A DNA stretch of 64,000 bases from Chloracidobacterium validum (GTDB taxonomy: Bacteria; Acidobacteriota; Blastocatellia; Chloracidobacteriales; Chloracidobacteriaceae). The notes under the pieces were generated by a model. That model was not told the origin of the DNA. It did no database searches and saw only the letters and a list, made by a program, of their open reading frames with translations. Below are positions 1-7,048 of the stretch, piece by piece. Position 1 is the stretch's first letter, and every line of letters starts with the position of its first letter. A program made the translations under genes and the position numbers. The stretch covers positions 1,161,501 to 1,225,500 of the forward strand of contig NZ_CP072648.1 of assembly GCF_018304825.1 (NCBI RefSeq), given 5' to 3'.

Positions 1-540
1 CGCATTGTCCACGTAGGGAAGCATGCCCAGATTGTTGTTGGCGGCCAGCGCACCCACGTCAATGATCATGATGATGCCCCGCGCTGCCGCGTAGCTTTCC
101 ATGAACTTGAACACCTTTTCACGCAGTGGGTTGAGGATCGTTTGCTGCTCGCGCTCGATGTCGGCACGGAGGTCTTCATCCTTGCGCTTGTATTCCTTTT
201 CAAGCGCCAGTCCTTGCTCCTGAGCCTGCCGGCGAACTTCAACCGAAAGTTTTTCGTCCTGCACCTTCTGGCTCAACTCCTGCAACCGCTTACTGAGTGT
301 CTCTAGTTCAGTCGTGCGGGGCTTGAACTTGTCTTCCAACTTCTGCGCCTGCCGCCGGAACTCATCAATCTTTTCGCCAAACGCTAGGGTGTTGACGATG
401 ACAACCCGTCCCGTTGGAATGGATGTGGCCTTGGGTGGGGCAGCCGGTTGGGCAGTCCCCGTCGGGAGCGCTTGCGCCGAGGCTGTCGTAAAGCCTGCCG
501 CGACGACGGCAAGCGCCCAGAGCGGAAAAGAAAACTTCAT
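1..540 (-). CDS. skp: Skp/OmpH-family periplasmic chaperone, 3' end outside window
   Basis: The start codon is at 540 and 180 codons are visible without a stop, so the C-terminus lies beyond base 1. Residues 1-23 form a signal peptide ending in an ASA-Q type cleavage site. A Pro/Ala-rich stretch and a short beta segment (GRVVIVNT) follow, then a long charged heptad-like helix (about 58-150), as expected for the tentacle of Skp, and a return segment (GIIMIIDVGALAAN). In the family, Skp holds unfolded outer-membrane proteins in the periplasm, so a diderm cell is implied. The gene is divergent from the GYF-RDD array, and pieces of its antisense sequence reappear in the array spacers. Confidence 0.85.
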   Translation of the reverse strand, partial: MKFSFPLWALAVVAAGFTTASAQALPTGTAQPAAPPKATSIPTGRVVIVNTLAFGEKIDEFRRQAQKLEDKFKPRTTELETLSKRLQELSQKVQDEKLSVEVRRQAQEQGLALEKEYKRKDEDLRADIEREQQTILNPLREKVFKFMESYAAARGIIMIIDVGALAANNNLGMLPYVDNA

Positions 541-837
541 GATCTGTAGCAGTCCTTAGAAAGTTTGGCTGTGGTTGGTCGTGTCTTGCGCAAAACAGAG
601 CCGACTACGCCGCGTAGTGGCAGATGCGTCTCCCACCAGGGAAGTTTGCCATTATACGGATGCCCGGTCAGAACGCAATCCGATGGTTTGTTCCGTCAAT
701 CTGGCGCCATCTCAAACGTATATCGTTGACAGGGCAACTTAGTGCGTTACGATAGCCGCCTGTATCCGTAGATGAGGCCTTCCTCGCTCTGAATTGGGTA
801 TCGCGCGACCACTCTCCCAGAAAGGCATTTTTCCATC
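541..837. other. Divergent intergenic region between skp and the first GYF-RDD gene
   Basis: This 297-bp stretch separates two divergent genes and carries no credible ORF. It holds the plus-strand promoter at 726-753. A purine-rich AGAAAGG ribosome-binding site lies about 10 bases before the ATG at 838. I see no clear skp promoter on the minus strand by eye. Confidence 0.6.
726..753 (+). promoter_or_regulatory. Sigma-70-type promoter of GYF-RDD paralogue 1
   Basis: A consensus -35 box TTGACA (726-731) is followed by 16 bases and a -10-like TACGAT (748-753). The same layout (TTGACA, 16 bases, TACNRT) occurs before paralogues 2 and 3, and this recurrence is the main support. The predicted leader is about 80 bases. 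Confidence 0.6.
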
Positions 838-1614
838 ATGACCTGGCGTGTCGTCGTTCAAGGGCAGACCTATGAAACAAGCCTTGAAGAACTCAGGCAG
901 TGGGTTCAAGAGGGTCGGGTACTACCTACTGACCAGATTTTTCAGCCTGGCGTGGGCTGGGTTGCGGCTGGTCAGGTTGCCGACCTCCAGGCGTGGTTTC
1001 CACCTGGAGCGGCGACGCTCCCGCCTCCCGCCGGCTTTTCTGGAAGCACGCCAGGCGGTGGTGACCTGGCTTCGTCCCCCTATGCATCGTCTTACGCGCC
1101 TCATACGCCGCCCCTTGACCCTTACACCCCGGCTTACGGACAAGTTGGGGGGTACGGGCCGCCAATGGCAATCTCCTTTGGCAGCCCCGCCAGCCTTGGC
1201 AAGCGTTTCTTGGGTGCTTTCGTGGACGGATGCCTAACGATGCTTTGTAGCTTGCCCGGTATAATTCTTTACATGACCGCCATCGCCGCTGGGGTCCAGG
1301 ATGGCGGGAGCGTGCCGGCTGGTCGAGCCGCCGGAGGATACCTTCTCATCTACCTTGGCGCGATTGCTTACGGGCTGTTGTGCGCCTACATGCTCAGCAA
1401 GAGTGGCGCATCGCCGGGCAAAAAACTCGCCGGGACAGTGGTTCTGCGTGAAGATGGTCAGTATCTCACATTTGGCATGGCCATTCTGCGTGAGTTCCTC
1501 AAAAACGTTTTCAGCAACATTTGCTTCCTGCTCATTTTGTGGTTGCTGTTCGACTCAGAGCGCCAGCAACTCTATGACAAGGTGGTGCGGGCGAACGTGT
1601 ATGAAGCTTCCTGA
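838..1614 (+). CDS. GYF_2 + RDD membrane protein, paralogue 1
   Basis: 258 residues. Residues 1-55 resemble a GYF_2-type module (MTWRVVVQGQTYE, then LPTDQIFQPGVGWVAA). Residues 55-115 are a Pro/Gly/Tyr-rich linker. Residues 118-258 form an RDD domain, with an Arg and Asp in GKRFLGAFVDG, hydrophobic segments near 135-155, 168-188 and 225-240, and the signature SGASPGKKLAGTVV. RDD proteins are small polytopic membrane proteins, some with transport roles, and GYF_2 modules are predicted peptide-binding domains. The substrate is unknown. It has its own promoter and an AGAAAGG ribosome-binding site, and is the first of four tandem copies. Confidence 0.8.
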   Translation: MTWRVVVQGQTYETSLEELRQWVQEGRVLPTDQIFQPGVGWVAAGQVADLQAWFPPGAATLPPPAGFSGSTPGGGDLASSPYASSYAPHTPPLDPYTPAYGQVGGYGPPMAISFGSPASLGKRFLGAFVDGCLTMLCSLPGIILYMTAIAAGVQDGGSVPAGRAAGGYLLIYLGAIAYGLLCAYMLSKSGASPGKKLAGTVVLREDGQYLTFGMAILREFLKNVFSNICFLLILWLLFDSERQQLYDKVVRANVYEAS

Positions 1615-1985
1615 ATTTTGCCTATTTGCCTTGTTCACCGTCGGACCGCGCTACCCACGCTAGCAGGAGCGCCTGGTAATGCCATTTTGGTTCGATTTGT
1701 CGGTGGCTGAGCGCCGGCCGGCTCGAACGCCTCTGCGCTTTACCCAAGCGTTTTTGCGCCCTTCTGACTCGACCCTCTCAAACGCTTCCCAGCGTCTCCA
1801 GTCAGGACTCCAGCGCGCAATTGGATGGTTGTCCCCCGGCCCGGCGCGGGTTGGCAAGCGTGCTGTTGACAGGGCAGAGCAACGCACTACCATGACCGCA
1901 TCTGTGCATCGAGTCGTTTTCATCACCTTCAGCCTGGCGGCCGGCAAGCTTTGGGCACGGCATCCCTTTGAAAGGTTTTCCCGTC
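1615..1985. repeat. Array spacer 1: repeated 3' flank, degraded skp-like remnant and promoter
   Basis: The 371-bp spacer begins with a block (about 1615-1760) shared with spacers 2 and 3, including ACCCACGCTAGCA and TTTTGGTTCGATTTGT. After it, CTTCTGACTCGAC (1761-1773) starts a poor match to antisense skp, weaker than in spacers 2 and 3. A promoter copy follows at 1866. The short ORFs here have no conserved product and look non-coding. Confidence 0.7.
1866..1893 (+). promoter_or_regulatory. Promoter of GYF-RDD paralogue 2
   Basis: TTGACA (1866-1871), 16 bases, TACCAT (1888-1893). The -35 box and the next four bases (TTGACAGGGC) are identical to those before paralogue 1, so this is a duplicated promoter. 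Confidence 0.55.
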
Positions 1986-2714
1986 ATGACGTGGCGTGTC
2001 ATCGTTCACGGGCAGACTTACGAAACAGACCAGGAAGGACTCAAGCAATGGGTTCGGGAAGGACGGGTATTGCCCACCGATCAGGTGTTTCAGCCTGACG
2101 TTGGCTGGGTGACTGCCGGTCAGATGCCAGAACTCCAGACCTTGTTTTCCCCGGAAGCTATGGCCCCGCCATCCGCTGGCGACGTTCCTGGGGACGGAAT
2201 AGCTTCGTATGTATCCTCTGATGTGCCGTCCCCTGAACCCGACCTGGCGACTTACGGGCAAGCCAGGGGATATCCGCCGCCACAAATGTCAACCAAGATT
2301 GGTGATATTGCCGATCTTTGGAAACGTTTCCTGGCGGTGTTAGTGGATGGCTTTGTGATGATGTCCTCTGGTTTCCCCGGAGTCTTCATCCTCACCACCG
2401 TCAGGGATAGCTCACAAGTCGGGCGAATGACGGGGGGACTGACCATCATGTACCTTGGCCCGGTGATCTACTGGTTGTTGTGCGTTTACCTGCTCAGCAA
2501 GACTGGCGCATCGCCGGGCAAGAAGCTCGTCGGGATCGTCGTTCTACGCGACAATGGTCAATATCTGACGTTTGGCATGGCCCTGCTGCGTGAGATACTC
2601 AAAAGCGTTCTCGGCAACCTGTGCCTCGTGATCAATTTGTGGTTCCTTTTCGATTCAGAGCGCCGGCAACTGTATGACAAGGTGGTGCGGGCAAACGTAT
2701 ATGAAGCTTCCTGA
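1986..2714 (+). CDS. GYF_2 + RDD membrane protein, paralogue 2
   Basis: 242 residues from the ATG at 1986. That start is preferred over a TTG at 1968 because it gives the N-terminus MTWRVIVHGQTYE shared by all four copies and has a GAAAGG ribosome-binding site about 10 bases upstream. It has an N-terminal GYF_2-type module, a short Pro/Ser linker (about 55-100) and an RDD domain with WKRFLAVLVDG and SGASPGKK-like (TGASPGKKLVG) motifs. The C-terminus VVRANVYEAS matches paralogue 1. The linker is shorter and more acidic than in paralogue 1. Function is unknown beyond a predicted membrane location. Confidence 0.78.
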   Translation: MTWRVIVHGQTYETDQEGLKQWVREGRVLPTDQVFQPDVGWVTAGQMPELQTLFSPEAMAPPSAGDVPGDGIASYVSSDVPSPEPDLATYGQARGYPPPQMSTKIGDIADLWKRFLAVLVDGFVMMSSGFPGVFILTTVRDSSQVGRMTGGLTIMYLGPVIYWLLCVYLLSKTGASPGKKLVGIVVLRDNGQYLTFGMALLREILKSVLGNLCLVINLWFLFDSERRQLYDKVVRANVYEAS

Positions 2715-2851
2715 AATTTTGCCTATTTGCCTTGTTCACCGTCGGACCGGCGCCACCCACGCTAGCACGAGCGCCGGTAACGCCGTTTTGGTTCGATTTG
2801 TGGACTGACGCCGGCCTGAGCGCCTCTGCGCTTCACCCAGGCGTTTTTGTG

Positions 2852-2973
2852 CCTTCTGACTCGACTCCTCTGCAACCGCTTGCCCAGTGCCTTCGGTTCA
2901 GTCGTGCTAAGCTTGGAATCTACTGCCAGCGTTTGCGTTGGCGCCAACGCCGATCGTCAAGCCTGCCGCGATG
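2852..2973 (-). pseudogene. Fossil fragment of skp in spacer 2
   Basis: 2852-2907 aligns with intact skp at about 263-317, sharing TGCAACCGCTT, GTTCAGTCGTGC and intervening bases with scattered substitutions and a 2-base indel. 2955-2973 aligns with the skp signal-peptide coding region (AAGCCTGCCGCGA). The two pieces are in the same order as in skp but closer together, so an internal deletion is implied. No reading frame survives. Confidence 0.7.
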
Positions 2974-3047
2974 GCACCAGAGGACTTCTGAACACAATCG
3001 GAGAGTTGGGGTTACCAAGCCCGGCGCACGTCAGCAGGTAAGAAGTG

Positions 3048-3075
3048 TTGACAAGGGAAAAAGAAGTATTACCGT
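3048..3075 (+). promoter_or_regulatory. Promoter of GYF-RDD paralogue 3
   Basis: TTGACA (3048-3053), 16 bases, TACCGT (3070-3075). Spacing equals that before paralogues 1 and 2 although the spacer bases have diverged to an A-rich run, so the boxes appear to be conserved. Confidence 0.55.
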
Positions 3076-3189
3076 ACGCGCATTACCCAAAAGTAGCTTT
3101 TTTTTCGCCTACGGCTTTCAAGAGTTCCAGTGGCTAGGGAGCCTTGAGTGGAAACCTTTGAAAGGCTTTTTTTGAAAGGTTTTCTTAGT

Positions 3190-3939
3190 ATGACTTGGCG
3201 CGTCATCGTTCACGGGCAGACTTATGAAACCAACCAGGAAGAACTCAAGCAATGGGTTCGGGGAGGACGAGTATTGCCTACTGACCAGGTGTTTCGGCCT
3301 GACGTTGGCTGGGTGATTGCCAGTCAGATACCAGAACTCCAAAGCTGCTTTCCATCTAGGGTGATGCCACCACCACCTTTTGGAGGCATGCCTGGGAGTG
3401 GAATGGCTCCGTCACCCTATGCTGCGTCTTACACGCCGCCCCTGCCTTATGCTCCCTTATACGGACAAGCCGGGGGATACCTGCCACAGCCAATTGTACT
3501 TCGTACGCCTGCCAGTCTTGGAAGACGGCTGCTCGGTTCTCTGGTGGATACCTTTATATCCCTGTTCTTTACTTCCCTTGGTTGGCTCACGATTCTTATC
3601 GCCCTTGAGGCATCTGCCAGCCGTTCACGGTCGTCTACAGATGGGGACATGCTCATGGTTGGATGCTTCCTTCTTTTCCTTGGTGGGTTTGTTTACTTGC
3701 TTTTGAACTCTTACCTGATTAGTCGGAGCGGAGCGACAATTGGCAAAAAATTCGCCGGGACGGTCATTCTGCGTGACGACGGTCGGTATCTCTCATTCGG
3801 CAGGGCCTTGCTGCGTGAGCTTCTCAAAGGTGTTTTCGGCAACGCTTGCTTTTTGTTCAATTTGTGGTTGCTTTTCGATTCAGAGAACCAGCAGTTGTAT
3901 GACAAGGCAGTGCGGGCAAACGTGTATAAAGCTTCCTGA
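3190..3939 (+). CDS. GYF_2 + RDD membrane protein, paralogue 3
   Basis: 249 residues from the ATG at 3190. A GTG at 3148 would add 14 residues absent from the paralogues. The protein has a GYF_2-type module (MTWRVIVHGQTYE), a Pro/Tyr linker (about 55-105) and an RDD domain beginning ASLGRRLLGSLVDTF. This copy has diverged most in the membrane part: ISRSGATIGKKFAG replaces SGASPGKK, and the end is ANVYKAS. Its product is predicted to be polytopic. The intact frame amid decaying spacers suggests selection on the protein. Confidence 0.77.
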   Translation: MTWRVIVHGQTYETNQEELKQWVRGGRVLPTDQVFRPDVGWVIASQIPELQSCFPSRVMPPPPFGGMPGSGMAPSPYAASYTPPLPYAPLYGQAGGYLPQPIVLRTPASLGRRLLGSLVDTFISLFFTSLGWLTILIALEASASRSRSSTDGDMLMVGCFLLFLGGFVYLLLNSYLISRSGATIGKKFAGTVILRDDGRYLSFGRALLRELLKGVFGNACFLFNLWLLFDSENQQLYDKAVRANVYKAS

Positions 3940-4294
3940 ATTCGCCTGCTTGCTTTGGTTGCTTGGTTGCCGTCGGACCAGTGTCACCCACGCTAGCACG
4001 AGCGCCGGTAACGCCGTTTTGGTTCGATTTGTCGGTTGAGCGCCGGCCGGCTCAAGCGCCTCTCACGCCGGAAACGCTCACGGGTTCGTTTGCACTTTAC
4101 CCAAGCGTTTTTTCGCCTTCTGACTCGACTCCTCTGCAACCGCTTGCCCAGTGCCTTCGGTTCAGTCGCGCGGGGCGTGGACTGTTCTGCCAACGTTTGC
4201 GCTGGGCTAATACTGTCGTAAAGCCTGCCGCTTAATTTTTTTGAGCTATGGCCAGTCTGGTCAATGGCGCCCCCCCAGAAAGGTGCCTCTCTGT
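3940..4294. repeat. Array spacer 3: repeated 3' flank and skp remnant, promoter deleted
   Basis: The 355-bp spacer repeats the 3'-flank block (about 3960-4110), with an imperfect hairpin TTGAGC...GCTCAA at 4036-4055, and has the best preserved skp remnant (4112-4231). Similarity to the array leader stops after AAGCCTGCCG (4221-4230). The next segment, up to the AGAAAGG ribosome-binding site, is unrelated and lacks the TTGACA-N16-TACNRT promoter. Confidence 0.65.
4112..4231 (-). pseudogene. Fossil fragment of skp in spacer 3
   Basis: 4117-4175 aligns with skp at about 263-321. By hand I count about 48 identities over 58 aligned bases plus a 2-base indel. 4211-4230 is nearly identical to the skp signal-peptide coding region at 481-500 (CTGTCGTAAAGCCTGCCG). 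The middle of skp is missing. The copy is non-coding. Confidence 0.75.
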
Positions 4295-5056
4295 ATGACG
4301 TGGCGTGTCATAGTTGAAAGACAAAGCTATGAAACAAACCTTGAAGAACTCAAGCAGTGGGTTCGAGAAGGCCGGATACTGCCTACTGACCAAGTTTTTC
4401 AGCCTAGAGTTGGCTGGGTTGCGGCTGGTCAGGTCCTAGAACTCCAACCCTTGTTCTCCCCTGGGGAGTCCCCGCGGCCACCCTCCGGTGATATTCCTGA
4501 TGACGGAACGGCTCCATCACCCTATGCATCCTCTTACACGTCTTATGCACCACCGCCTAAACCCTATGCTCCAGCTTACGGGCAAGTCGCAGGGGGATAC
4601 CTGCCAGAAACGTCAATCGGGCATGGTGGCAGTGCTACCTTGCTGAAACGTTTCCTAAGTTATGTTGTGGATCAAGCGCTGATGTGGGTCTGTACTCTCC
4701 CCGGGCTTGCCATCCTCCGGAGCATCGAGGATGAATCCCAGGCTGGGCGGGGGATGGGAGGAGTTATCCTTATGTACCTTGGCTCATTTGCCTACTGGCT
4801 GGCGTGTGCTTACATGCTCAGCAAAAGTGGCGCATCACCGGGTAAAAAAGTCTTCAAACTAGTAGTTGTGCGCGATGATGGTAATTATCTCTCGTTTGGC
4901 AGGGCTATTCTGCGTGAAATGATCAAAGCCGCTTTACTCAACGTTTGCTTCTTTTTTGTACTTTTCAAAGTAGTCATTCATTGGTTGTTCTCCAATGAAG
5001 AGTACCGGCAGCTTTATGACAGGCTTGTGGGAGCGAACGTATATGAAGCTTCCTGA
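4295..5056 (+). CDS. GYF_2 + RDD membrane protein, paralogue 4
   Basis: 253 residues from the ATG at 4295, which has an AGAAAGG ribosome-binding site. A TTG at 4241 would add 18 residues not found in the paralogues. It has a GYF_2-type module (MTWRVIVERQSYE), a linker (55-105) and an RDD domain (LLKRFLSYVVDQ, SGASPGKKVFKLVVV). The end, VGANVYEAS, keeps the shared C-terminus. A 4-residue insertion near the last membrane segment (FKVVIHWLF) distinguishes it. No promoter like those of copies 1-3 is visible, so it may depend on read-through or a different promoter. Confidence 0.78.
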   Translation: MTWRVIVERQSYETNLEELKQWVREGRILPTDQVFQPRVGWVAAGQVLELQPLFSPGESPRPPSGDIPDDGTAPSPYASSYTSYAPPPKPYAPAYGQVAGGYLPETSIGHGGSATLLKRFLSYVVDQALMWVCTLPGLAILRSIEDESQAGRGMGGVILMYLGSFAYWLACAYMLSKSGASPGKKVFKLVVVRDDGNYLSFGRAILREMIKAALLNVCFFFVLFKVVIHWLFSNEEYRQLYDRLVGANVYEAS

Positions 5057-5104
5057 AATCCGCTTGCGCTCATCTGCTGTGGTCAGGGGCGGCGCCGGCG
5101 CGGC

Positions 5105-6088
5105 TTAGGTTTCTGGACCAAGGTTGGGTGGTTTGAGCGCATCCATCTGCCGGGTGCGTTTCCAGGCTCCAGCTTCGTCCGTTTCTGGCGGCTGTACGCG
5201 CTGATAAATAACGTCTTCATCAACTTCTGCCAGGGCTTGGTCAAAGGCTACCCGCAGGTCCAAAGCGGAGGCAAAGCGCCCGTCCGGGTCTTTGGCTAAA
5301 GCGCGAAGCGCAACCGAAGCCACGGCCTCTGGAAGATGCGGTCGCCGCAGGTGAAGCGGTGGCGGTTCACCGGCAATGTGCCGGGCCATGATGTACTGTG
5401 CCGGGCCGATAAATGGTGGACGCCCCGCAAGCATGCGGTAGAGCACCACGCCAAGACTATAAATATCACTGGCCGGCGTCAGGTCTTTTTCGCTGCACTG
5501 TTCGGGACTCATATATTCCGGCGTTCCAACCGCAAGACTTTCGGTTGAAATTTCAAAGTCGTCGCTTTCCCAGTCAAAAAGTGGCTTGGCAATGCCAAAG
5601 TCAAGGAGCGTGACGTGTTCGCGCCCCTCTGAGGTTTTGCTCAAAAAGATATTTCCGGGCTTCAGATCACGGTGGATGATACCGGCTTGGTGAATCACGG
5701 CGACGGCATCGCACAGGGGGGCGAGTATCGCCTGAATGCGTGTGAGTTCGAGCTGTCCAACATGGTCGAGTTCGTCGAGTAGCGTCCGCCCGTTGAGCCA
5801 CTGCATCACGAAATAGGTAATCCCATACGGCGTCTCGCCACGGTCATAAATTTCGATGATGTTTGGGTGGTGAATGGTCGCCAGGATTTGCATCTCGCGG
5901 CGAAACCGCAGAACGGCCTCGTGATACTTCCCAAACTCGTGCTGCGAGATTGACTTGATGGCAACCAGGCGATTGGTCTGAAGGTCTCGTCCCTGATACA
6001 CGGTCGCGCCCGCGCCGGTATGAATGCGCGTTAGGATTTCATATCGGCTGTCCAGTGTGACACCGACGAGCGCGCTGCCTGAGATCAT
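5105..6088 (-). CDS. Cytoplasmic Ser/Thr protein kinase (Hanks type)
   Basis: 327 residues, essentially one protein kinase domain. Visible are the Gly-loop GAGATVY (25-31), the ATP-anchoring Lys45 (AIK), helix-C Glu65, HRDLKPGN with catalytic Asp141 and Asn146, DFG Asp163, and an activation segment ending GTPEYMSPEQ. All catalytic residues are present, so it should be active. The short C-terminal tail (about 285-327) has no membrane segment, PASTA or TPR repeats, which points to a soluble cytosolic kinase. It is the last gene of the maeB > pcp > S66 > kinase run, 39 bases after the previous stop. Substrates are unknown. Confidence 0.88.
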   Translation of the reverse strand: MISGSALVGVTLDSRYEILTRIHTGAGATVYQGRDLQTNRLVAIKSISQHEFGKYHEAVLRFRREMQILATIHHPNIIEIYDRGETPYGITYFVMQWLNGRTLLDELDHVGQLELTRIQAILAPLCDAVAVIHQAGIIHRDLKPGNIFLSKTSEGREHVTLLDFGIAKPLFDWESDDFEISTESLAVGTPEYMSPEQCSEKDLTPASDIYSLGVVLYRMLAGRPPFIGPAQYIMARHIAGEPPPLHLRRPHLPEAVASVALRALAKDPDGRFASALDLRVAFDQALAEVDEDVIYQRVQPPETDEAGAWKRTRQMDALKPPNLGPET

Positions 6089-6127
6089 CGGTTGTCCCTC
6101 CCACGACAGATTAGCCCAAGGCTGAGG

Positions 6128-7048
6128 TCATGCCACGGCGGCTTCCGTCACGGTCAACGTGCCCGCGCGCGCATCGAGCGTCACCCGGACGCCGCATGGC
6201 AGCGTCCGATTGCCCACGTCGCTGTGCCCGCTGCGCCAACCGTAAATGGCCGGGACGCCCAGCGGGCGAATCAGGTCATGAATCACTTCTGCCAAGTGGT
6301 AACCCTGCTCCGCATGCTGGACACAGTCACTCATTTCACCAAAGACAAAACCGGCCACACGGTCAAGCTGCCCGGCGAGGTAAAGTTGTTGAAGCAAGCG
6401 GTCAATCTGGTAGGGCTTGGTTGCAGTATCTTCAAGAAACAGCACCGTGCCAGCCGTATCGAGCTGCCACGGTGTCCCGACCAGGGCCGCCACGAGCGAC
6501 AAACACCCACCAACCAGTACGCCACTCGCGTGGCCGCCGATTAATGTTTCAACATGCGGAGAAGTCAGCGTTCCGGCCGGCTGGGCGTCCATCGTCAGGC
6601 GACAAAATGAATCCCAGTCGTAGTGCGCTGTTCCGGCTGAAAAGTCTTTGGCAACCATCGGGCCGTGAAACGTCACGAGGCGACAAGCCCGCCACAGGAA
6701 CAGGTGCAATGCTGTCAGGTCACTGTAGCCGACAAAAATTTTGGGCTGCGCGCTCAGCCGCGCCGCATCGAGATGGGGCAGCAAGTGCATCGTGCCGTAG
6801 CCACCCCGCGCCGCAATCACGGCCTTGACTTCTGGATTCATCCAGATTTCGTGAAACTCGGCGAGCCGCCGTTGCAGGGTTCCGGCCGTGTAACGCGCTT
6901 TGGCTCCAATGTCCGCCCGGTGGATGACGCGAAAGCCGCGCCGTTCGAGTTCGCGGGTGCCAGCAGCCAGCCAGTCGAGCTTGACATTGCTGGCCGGTGC
7001 AATGACGCCAATGAGGTCGCCCGGTTTCAGAGCAGGTGGTTTGACCAT
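6128..7048 (-). CDS. LD-carboxypeptidase, peptidase family S66
   Basis: 306 residues. The family cleaves the L,D bond of the terminal D-Ala in muropeptide tetrapeptides (LdcA) or acts on related amides (MccF). The catalytic triad can be placed: Ser109 in VGYSD, Glu206 in LFLEDT and His275 in SGHSDVGN. RGGYG (81-85) and the C-terminal LPCGV also fit S66. No signal peptide is visible, which fits cytoplasmic murein recycling. It overlaps the 3' end of pcp by 22 bases, so translation is probably coupled. LdcA and MccF-like members cannot be separated by eye. Confidence 0.85.
   Translation of the reverse strand: MVKPPALKPGDLIGVIAPASNVKLDWLAAGTRELERRGFRVIHRADIGAKARYTAGTLQRRLAEFHEIWMNPEVKAVIAARGGYGTMHLLPHLDAARLSAQPKIFVGYSDLTALHLFLWRACRLVTFHGPMVAKDFSAGTAHYDWDSFCRLTMDAQPAGTLTSPHVETLIGGHASGVLVGGCLSLVAALVGTPWQLDTAGTVLFLEDTATKPYQIDRLLQQLYLAGQLDRVAGFVFGEMSDCVQHAEQGYHLAEVIHDLIRPLGVPAIYGWRSGHSDVGNRTLPCGVRVTLDARAGTLTVTEAAVA

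Follow-up and report, generated by a model that had tools for sequence, protein, structure and literature searches.

How does a tandem array of membrane-protein genes come to carry pieces of its neighbour between its members, and what do these pieces tell about the growth of the array? The question is raised by Chloracidobacterium validum, a phototroph from a hot spring, in which four GYF/RDD genes (copies 1-4, separated by spacers 1-3) follow each other beside skp, the gene of an OmpH-like periplasmic chaperone. The locus lies in a stretch of 64,000 nucleotides (contig NZ_CP072648.1, positions 1,161,501-1,225,500), referred to as the window, whose own numbering is used below; the genome comprises two contigs of 2,659,040 and 1,000,103 bases, together 3,659,143. 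Seven genomes of the genus were sampled, namely C. validum and six congeners (G001-G006). A first inspection, the sequence-only reading, had taken the spacers for carriers of fossil skp copies left behind by a tandem duplication.

Based on our data, it is highly probable that a unit made up of the GYF/RDD gene with a tail of ~0.12 kb behind it and, in front of it, the divergent promoter region and inner skp was duplicated in tandem after the split from the sampled congeners, and that it was then recopied together with its fossil and reshuffled. The GYF/RDD promoter would have been kept before copies 2 and 3, and copies 2-4 would have changed in specificity and not in dosage.

Pieces of skp between the genes

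Using BLASTN of the spacers against positions 1-837, we recovered two pieces of skp both in spacer 2 (264-325 at 78%, E 3.4e-10; 468-503 at 81%, E 9e-5) and in spacer 3 (264-348 at 78%, E 2.7e-16; 483-501 with 19/19 identical bases, E 5.6e-6). In both spacers, the pieces retain the strand and the order of skp. When mismatches were penalised less strongly in a local alignment, the first piece grew to about 236-356, and the second piece of spacer 2 reached as far as 522. The earlier positions (263-321 and 481-500) were right in location and slightly short in extent. The two alignments in spacer 2 overlap by 11 bases, and the edge of the deletion between them is thus uncertain. As controls we used dinucleotide shuffles (n=500) and real stretches of the window (n=448), none of which matched the scores of spacer 2 (57) or spacer 3 (78); the score of the second piece was reached by 0/2000 shuffles per spacer in spacer 2 and likewise in spacer 3. 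The collinear skp pieces proposed for these two spacers are therefore confirmed as better than shuffled sequence. For spacer 1 a weaker match had been described, and this is what we found as well (score 30, matched by 1/500 shuffles and 6/448 real stretches). By itself, spacer 1 is unconvincing as skp; it is tied to the others through its homology with spacer 2 (86% over 182 nucleotides by BLASTN), which extends into the start of the same skp piece.

All spacers begin with a tail running from the stop codon of the preceding gene, followed by the skp piece from about 236. After this first piece, spacers 2 and 3 jump to skp 468 and 483, respectively, and spacers 1 and 2 jump to about 669, the -35 side of skp's own promoter, from where they continue into the gene promoter and leader. 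The inner deletions removed skp ~357-467 in spacer 2 and 349-482 in spacer 3. The deletion is common to both spacers, its edges being offset by a few bases, and so is a two-base insertion. Six bases at 254-262 are missing from all three fossils. Moreover, a base absent from all seven skp genes is common to the three fossils at 4 of 64 sites and to spacers 2 and 3 at 10 of 105 sites. The simplest reading of these shared states would be a single join, after which the fossil was copied along with the array. The positions of all features are collected in Table 1.

Table 1. Features of the GYF/RDD array and its flanks in window numbering.
Feature	Positions	Strand	Remarks
skp, OmpH-like periplasmic chaperone, intact	1-540	-	207-amino-acid frame; 3' end ~83 bases left of the window
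Probable skp promoter	651-678	-	-35 TTGCGT 678-673, -10 TATAAT 656-651; by eye
Copy 1 promoter	726-753	+	TTGACA-16-TACGAT; promoter scan and conservation
Copy 1, GYF/RDD membrane protein	838-1614	+	slowly evolving, ortholog-like
Tail D1	1615-1737	+	homologous to D2 and D3
Spacer 1 skp fossil	1738-1805	+	~skp 237-311, weak by itself; alignment
Copy 2 promoter, retained	1866-1893	+	TTGACA-16-TACCAT; promoter scan
Copy 2, GYF/RDD membrane protein	1986-2714	+	mosaic
Tail D2	2715-2830	+	homology with D1 and D3
Spacer 2 skp fossil	2831-2982	+	2831-2945 ~ skp 237-356; 2935-2982 ~ skp 468-522
Copy 3 promoter, retained	3048-3075	+	TTGACA-16-TACCGT; by eye and alignment, not in promoter-scan output
Copy 3, GYF/RDD membrane protein	3190-3939	+
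Tail D3	3940-4093	+	holds 27-base insert 4065-4091; homology with D1 and D2
Spacer 3 skp fossil	4094-4231	+	4094-4202 ~ skp 236-348; 4213-4231 = skp 483-501 (19/19)
Copy 4, GYF/RDD membrane protein	4295-5056	+	promoter remnant upstream undetectable; downstream tail not found
Protein kinase gene	5105-6088	-	flanks the single-copy GYF/RDD gene in 5/6 congeners

Origin and growth of the array

The comparison of synteny and copy number that had been suggested along with the duplication supports it, as each of the six congeners has one close GYF/RDD copy adjoining skp. The kinase gene stands on the other side of this copy in five of them, and in G006 no kinase match was found within the 11 kb examined. 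The fossils are overall nearest to the skp of their own genome: over aligned sites, spacer 2 is identical to it at 76.9% (123/160) and spacer 3 at 81.0% (102/126), compared with 71.9% and 72.2% for the best congener. At nine sites C. validum skp has a base unique to it, which is shared by spacer 3 at six and by spacer 2 at four sites (spacer 1: two of five). In a DNA tree the four copies form one clade with a support of 100/99, and the synonymous divergence (dS, NG86) of 0.78-1.10 among the copies lies below the 1.71 between copy 1 and its ortholog in G005. From the clade, the affinity to the own skp and the lower dS, it is most likely that the tandem duplication occurred after the C. validum lineage had left the six sampled congeners, although gene conversion within the array could add to this signal. 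Together with the collinearity of the fossils and the single copies in all congeners, these results uphold the core of the sequence-only reading, a tandem duplication taking in the 5' part of skp.

Copy 2 is a mosaic, with its 5' end nearest to copy 3 and its 3' end nearest to copy 1: sites shared exclusively with copy 3 number 28 in codons 1-56, compared with 11 shared exclusively with copy 1, and in the RDD-C part the numbers are 10 and 29 (Fisher p 9e-5). In spacer 2, the tail goes with spacer 1, but the fossil goes with spacer 3 (p 6e-4). Such patterns fit an exchange between copies.

We therefore propose the following course of events for the duplication. A unit of presumably ~1.5 kb, reaching from about position 236 in skp through its 5' end and the divergent promoter region to the gene and ~120 bases downstream of it, would have been duplicated head-to-tail in the C. 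validum lineage, as the collinearity indicates, by a joining mechanism that we can only infer. The unit proposed earlier (5' skp, divergent promoter, GYF/RDD gene) thus stands in its core and has to be enlarged by the downstream tail. Being severed from the rest of skp, the new skp piece would have decayed through inner deletions and the loss of the skp start codon and -10 box, while the promoter facing the GYF/RDD gene would have been preserved before copies 2 and 3. Later rounds would have copied the gene with the already mutated fossil, and recombination would have produced the mosaics.

Several observations weigh against this history. i) At the nine sites unique to the own skp, spacer 2 agrees with the other species at five and spacer 3 at three, and a protein tree supports the four-copy clade at 66/73 only. 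ii) The tails D1-D3 are mutually homologous and present after copies 1-3 only, though a simple model predicts one after every copy, so that a later deletion must be assumed for copy 4. iii) The tail was not found downstream of the GYF/RDD gene in any of the six congeners. When D1-D3 were compared on both strands with 700-base stretches following copy 4 and the six orthologs (42 comparisons), the strongest match was reached by 5/200 shuffles. Between a point ~4 kb to the left of the window and the source of the fossil, the best match of the tail had an E value of 0.06. A search with spacer 2 against the seven genus genomes (E 0.1) gave nothing in the own genome outside the array and skp and only short weak matches in four congeners; those inside the tail lie in G005 (E 0.03) and G002 (E 0.1), and one in G004 (E 0.06) straddles the border of tail and fossil. 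iv) Of the 179 sites compared in tail plus fossil, the three spacer pairs are divergent at 13%, 14% and 17%, counts that are lowered by the exclusion of gapped columns; for the genes, the values at fourfold sites are 39%, 31% and 39% (p 1e-5 to 4e-3). So low a difference is odd for neutral debris and could be due to homogenisation of 3' ends and spacers or to the spacers being under constraint. v) The ratio of nonsynonymous to synonymous divergence (dN/dS) is 0.34-0.63 among the copies by two methods (NG86, YN00), and copy 1 compared with G005 gives 0.11 (NG86) or 0.15 (YN00). The orthologs of G003 and G002, however, reach 0.37 and 0.44 between them, so that a raised dN/dS alone is not special to the array. 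The comparisons leave out copies 2 and 3 versus G005 by YN00, and copy 3 versus G005 by NG86, for which dS was undefined.

Spacer 3 bears a further mark of its own. Relative to spacers 1 and 2 it has 27 extra bases that recur without change inside cas3 on the second contig (C2:545020-545046, minus strand); their exact sequence occurs in one of 39 genomes searched, C. validum itself. The insert looks like a templated filler insertion. Beyond the array, skp and the cas3 stretch, spacer 3 matched nothing in the own genome below an E value of 0.05.

Outside the array, a second and more distant GYF/RDD gene is located elsewhere in four of the six congeners (G001, G004, G005, G006). It was not found in C. 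validum, G002 and G003, apart from G002 having a GYF-like stretch close to the end of a contig; for G002, a draft of 85% completeness, the absence is weak. Perhaps the array expanded in a lineage without the distant gene. In a genome from another genus of the family (G008, C676:2653-3840), there are two adjacent GYF/RDD-like frames, perhaps an independent tandem duplication. A pattern search of genome contigs for related loci returned 53 pattern matches, of which none was confirmed.

Transcription signals in the spacers

The genes skp and GYF/RDD have a divergent promoter pair (651-678 and 726-753), which is conserved across the seven aligned genus genomes: the copy 1 promoter is present in all of them (as TTGACG in one), and both the -35 and the -10 box of skp are kept throughout. 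In the spacers, the two halves of this pair had different fates. The skp -10 box (651-656) is absent from all three spacers, the skp start codon is gone from every one of them, and a remnant of the -35 side persists in spacers 1 and 2. Towards the following gene, the promoter-side end of spacer 1 resembles the original upstream region with a score reached by 0/1000 shuffles, that of spacer 2 by 4/1000, and that of spacer 3 cannot be distinguished from shuffles (207/1000). Together with the TTGACA boxes, this indicates that the GYF/RDD promoter is retained before copies 2 and 3 and undetectable before copy 4, and the earlier claim that the promoter was kept applies to the former two only.

Conservation of the spacers would also be expected if they were kept as working parts, with tail and fossil terminating the preceding copy and with the U-run and 3' hairpin arm supplied by skp. 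Tail and fossil are indeed better conserved than fourfold sites, and on the skp-derived T-runs (at 1751, 2844 and 4108) end a hairpin of -19.1 kcal/mol in spacer 2, reached by 3/200 shuffles, and one of -10.4 kcal/mol in spacer 3, reached by 14/200; at the corresponding place, skp itself has almost no hairpin (-0.1 kcal/mol). However, the hairpin of spacer 1 is ordinary (67/200 shuffles), a terminator scan of 500-5200 gave two sites compared with 6.9 expected from shuffles, and recombinational homogenisation explains the conservation likewise. We therefore regard such a terminator function as doubtful.

The short stem of spacers 1 and 2 does not fold in spacer 3. When the tails were folded, only spacer 2 stood out (z of -2.3 for one strand and -2.4 for the other; -0.3 to 0.7 for the other four folds), so that no conserved RNA is claimed. 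Rfam returned one match on 1-6500 (E 0.92, 21.2 bits compared with a gathering score of 80), which we took as chance. In its most elaborate form, the terminator idea holds that the skp fossils were co-opted: T-run and hairpin arm, which are coding in skp on the other strand, would end transcription of the preceding copy, units bearing a promoter would become promoter-gene-terminator cassettes, and the cas3-identical insert would give spacer 3 a new 5' arm. This we consider unlikely; if true, it would account for the conservation of tail and fossil above fourfold sites.

Divergence of the copies and its meaning

All four copies have intact frames and match the RDD family (PF06271) with 65.5-76.1 bits at a cut-off of 24.1. 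The residues R123, D130 and D247 (copy 1 numbering) are invariant across them and, inferred from their position, would be the R-D-D residues of the family. At a loose threshold, GYF_2 (PF14237) was matched by copies 1 and 3 with 18.0 and 16.3 bits, below the cut-off of 25.8, so the N-terminal domain appears GYF-like only. NCBIfam matched none of the four copies, their AlphaFold2 models are poor (mean predicted local distance difference test score 55.9, predicted template modelling score 0.34), and of the six PDB sequences matched at E values up to 1, no entry is named as an RDD protein, the best being a urease (E 0.0065). The product of intact skp matches Pfam OmpH (PF03938) with E 3.5e-20 and 73.1 bits (cut-off 32.4).

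In relative-rate tests with three outgroups for each of copies 2-4, the derived copy had 48-65 amino-acid changes and copy 1 had 9-24 in all nine cases, which corresponds to 2-7 times more changed amino acids (p 3.5e-4 to 7.5e-11). At third positions, the rates differed with p < 0.05 in three of nine tests, one of them in the opposite direction. The nonsynonymous divergence peaks in the linker and in RDD-N, the first half of the RDD domain, and both are also the faster regions between species. Copies 2-4 thus show faster protein change under remaining constraint, be it through relaxed or through positive selection.

These data bear on why the array was kept. A larger dosage of one membrane protein would agree with the four intact frames and with the promoters kept before copies 2 and 3, yet the many changed sites of copies 2-4 and the highest dN in the linker and RDD-N do not, and we hold dosage to be improbable. 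Since copies 2-4 diverge quickly in protein, divergence fits better. The selection for several copies assumed by the sequence-only reading is in part borne out, indirectly, by frames that are intact and constrained, and the fast divergence of copies 2-4 is unlike dosage. Copy 1 would have retained the ancestral role, and copies 2-4, probably expressed and under constraint, would diverge above all in the linker and RDD-N. The likeliest use would be a small set of membrane proteins of altered specificity.

The same divergence could be read as a sign of age, that is, of an array older than the divergence of the genus, of which the other species have kept a single copy. In protein, copies 2-4 are less like copy 1 (54-58%) than orthologs are (60-74%), and the five of nine unique skp sites at which spacer 2 agrees with other species point the same way. 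Against an ancient array stand the DNA clade of the four copies, their dS below that of copy 1 and G005, the fossils being nearest to their own skp, and a tail seen after the gene in 0/6 congeners; gene conversion among the copies could imitate some of this evidence. Altogether, great age is very unlikely. That the spacer pieces reflect chance or compositional similarity and not skp is next to impossible. In favour of it is the score of spacer 1 taken alone, which is within reach of the controls; for spacers 2 and 3 it is refuted by the shuffles and real stretches and by two ordered pieces on one strand, and spacers 1 and 2 moreover continue with sequence homologous to the promoter side.

Tandem duplication with a truncated copy of the flanking gene at the join, the fragment then decaying, is an established type of event. 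The array of C. validum resembles it in its head-to-tail copies, the join inside the neighbour and the decaying fragment. It differs in that the fragment appears to have been recopied with the array, can still be read in at least two spacers and testifies to a reticulate history. No similar case was found among the matches listed for duplication joins, judged by title or start of abstract, and the string 'duplicat' occurs 0 times in the accessible main text of two Chloracidobacterium genome papers (PMC12816986, PMC8245765). As in concerted evolution of prokaryotic paralogs, to the extent covered by the available part of the source (PMC6053082), the copies are closer to each other than to orthologs in the DNA tree and have mosaic stretches; in contrast to it, the proteins of the array diverge quickly instead of staying alike.

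For the RDD family, the available part of one article (PMC7568657) names the RDD protein of Halobacillus andaensis as a cation/proton antiporter and SppI of B. subtilis as an inhibitor of SppA. The four copies belong with this family by their scores above the Pfam cut-off and by keeping R123, D130 and D247, but unlike these two proteins they have an N-terminal GYF-like domain and a Pro-rich linker and stand in four tandem copies, and their sequences give no evidence for transport or protease inhibition. A search for literature on RDD combined with a GYF domain gave nothing relevant as judged by title.

The type of event is ordinary, and its record is unusually legible. From the debris of a neighbour one can tell where the unit started, that copying of the array took the fossil along, what skp lost (its start and -10 box), and that the GYF/RDD promoter was kept before two of the three new copies. 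In this way, the locus sets one copy that stays put against three sisters that change their protein sequence fast, within a membrane family of poorly known function.

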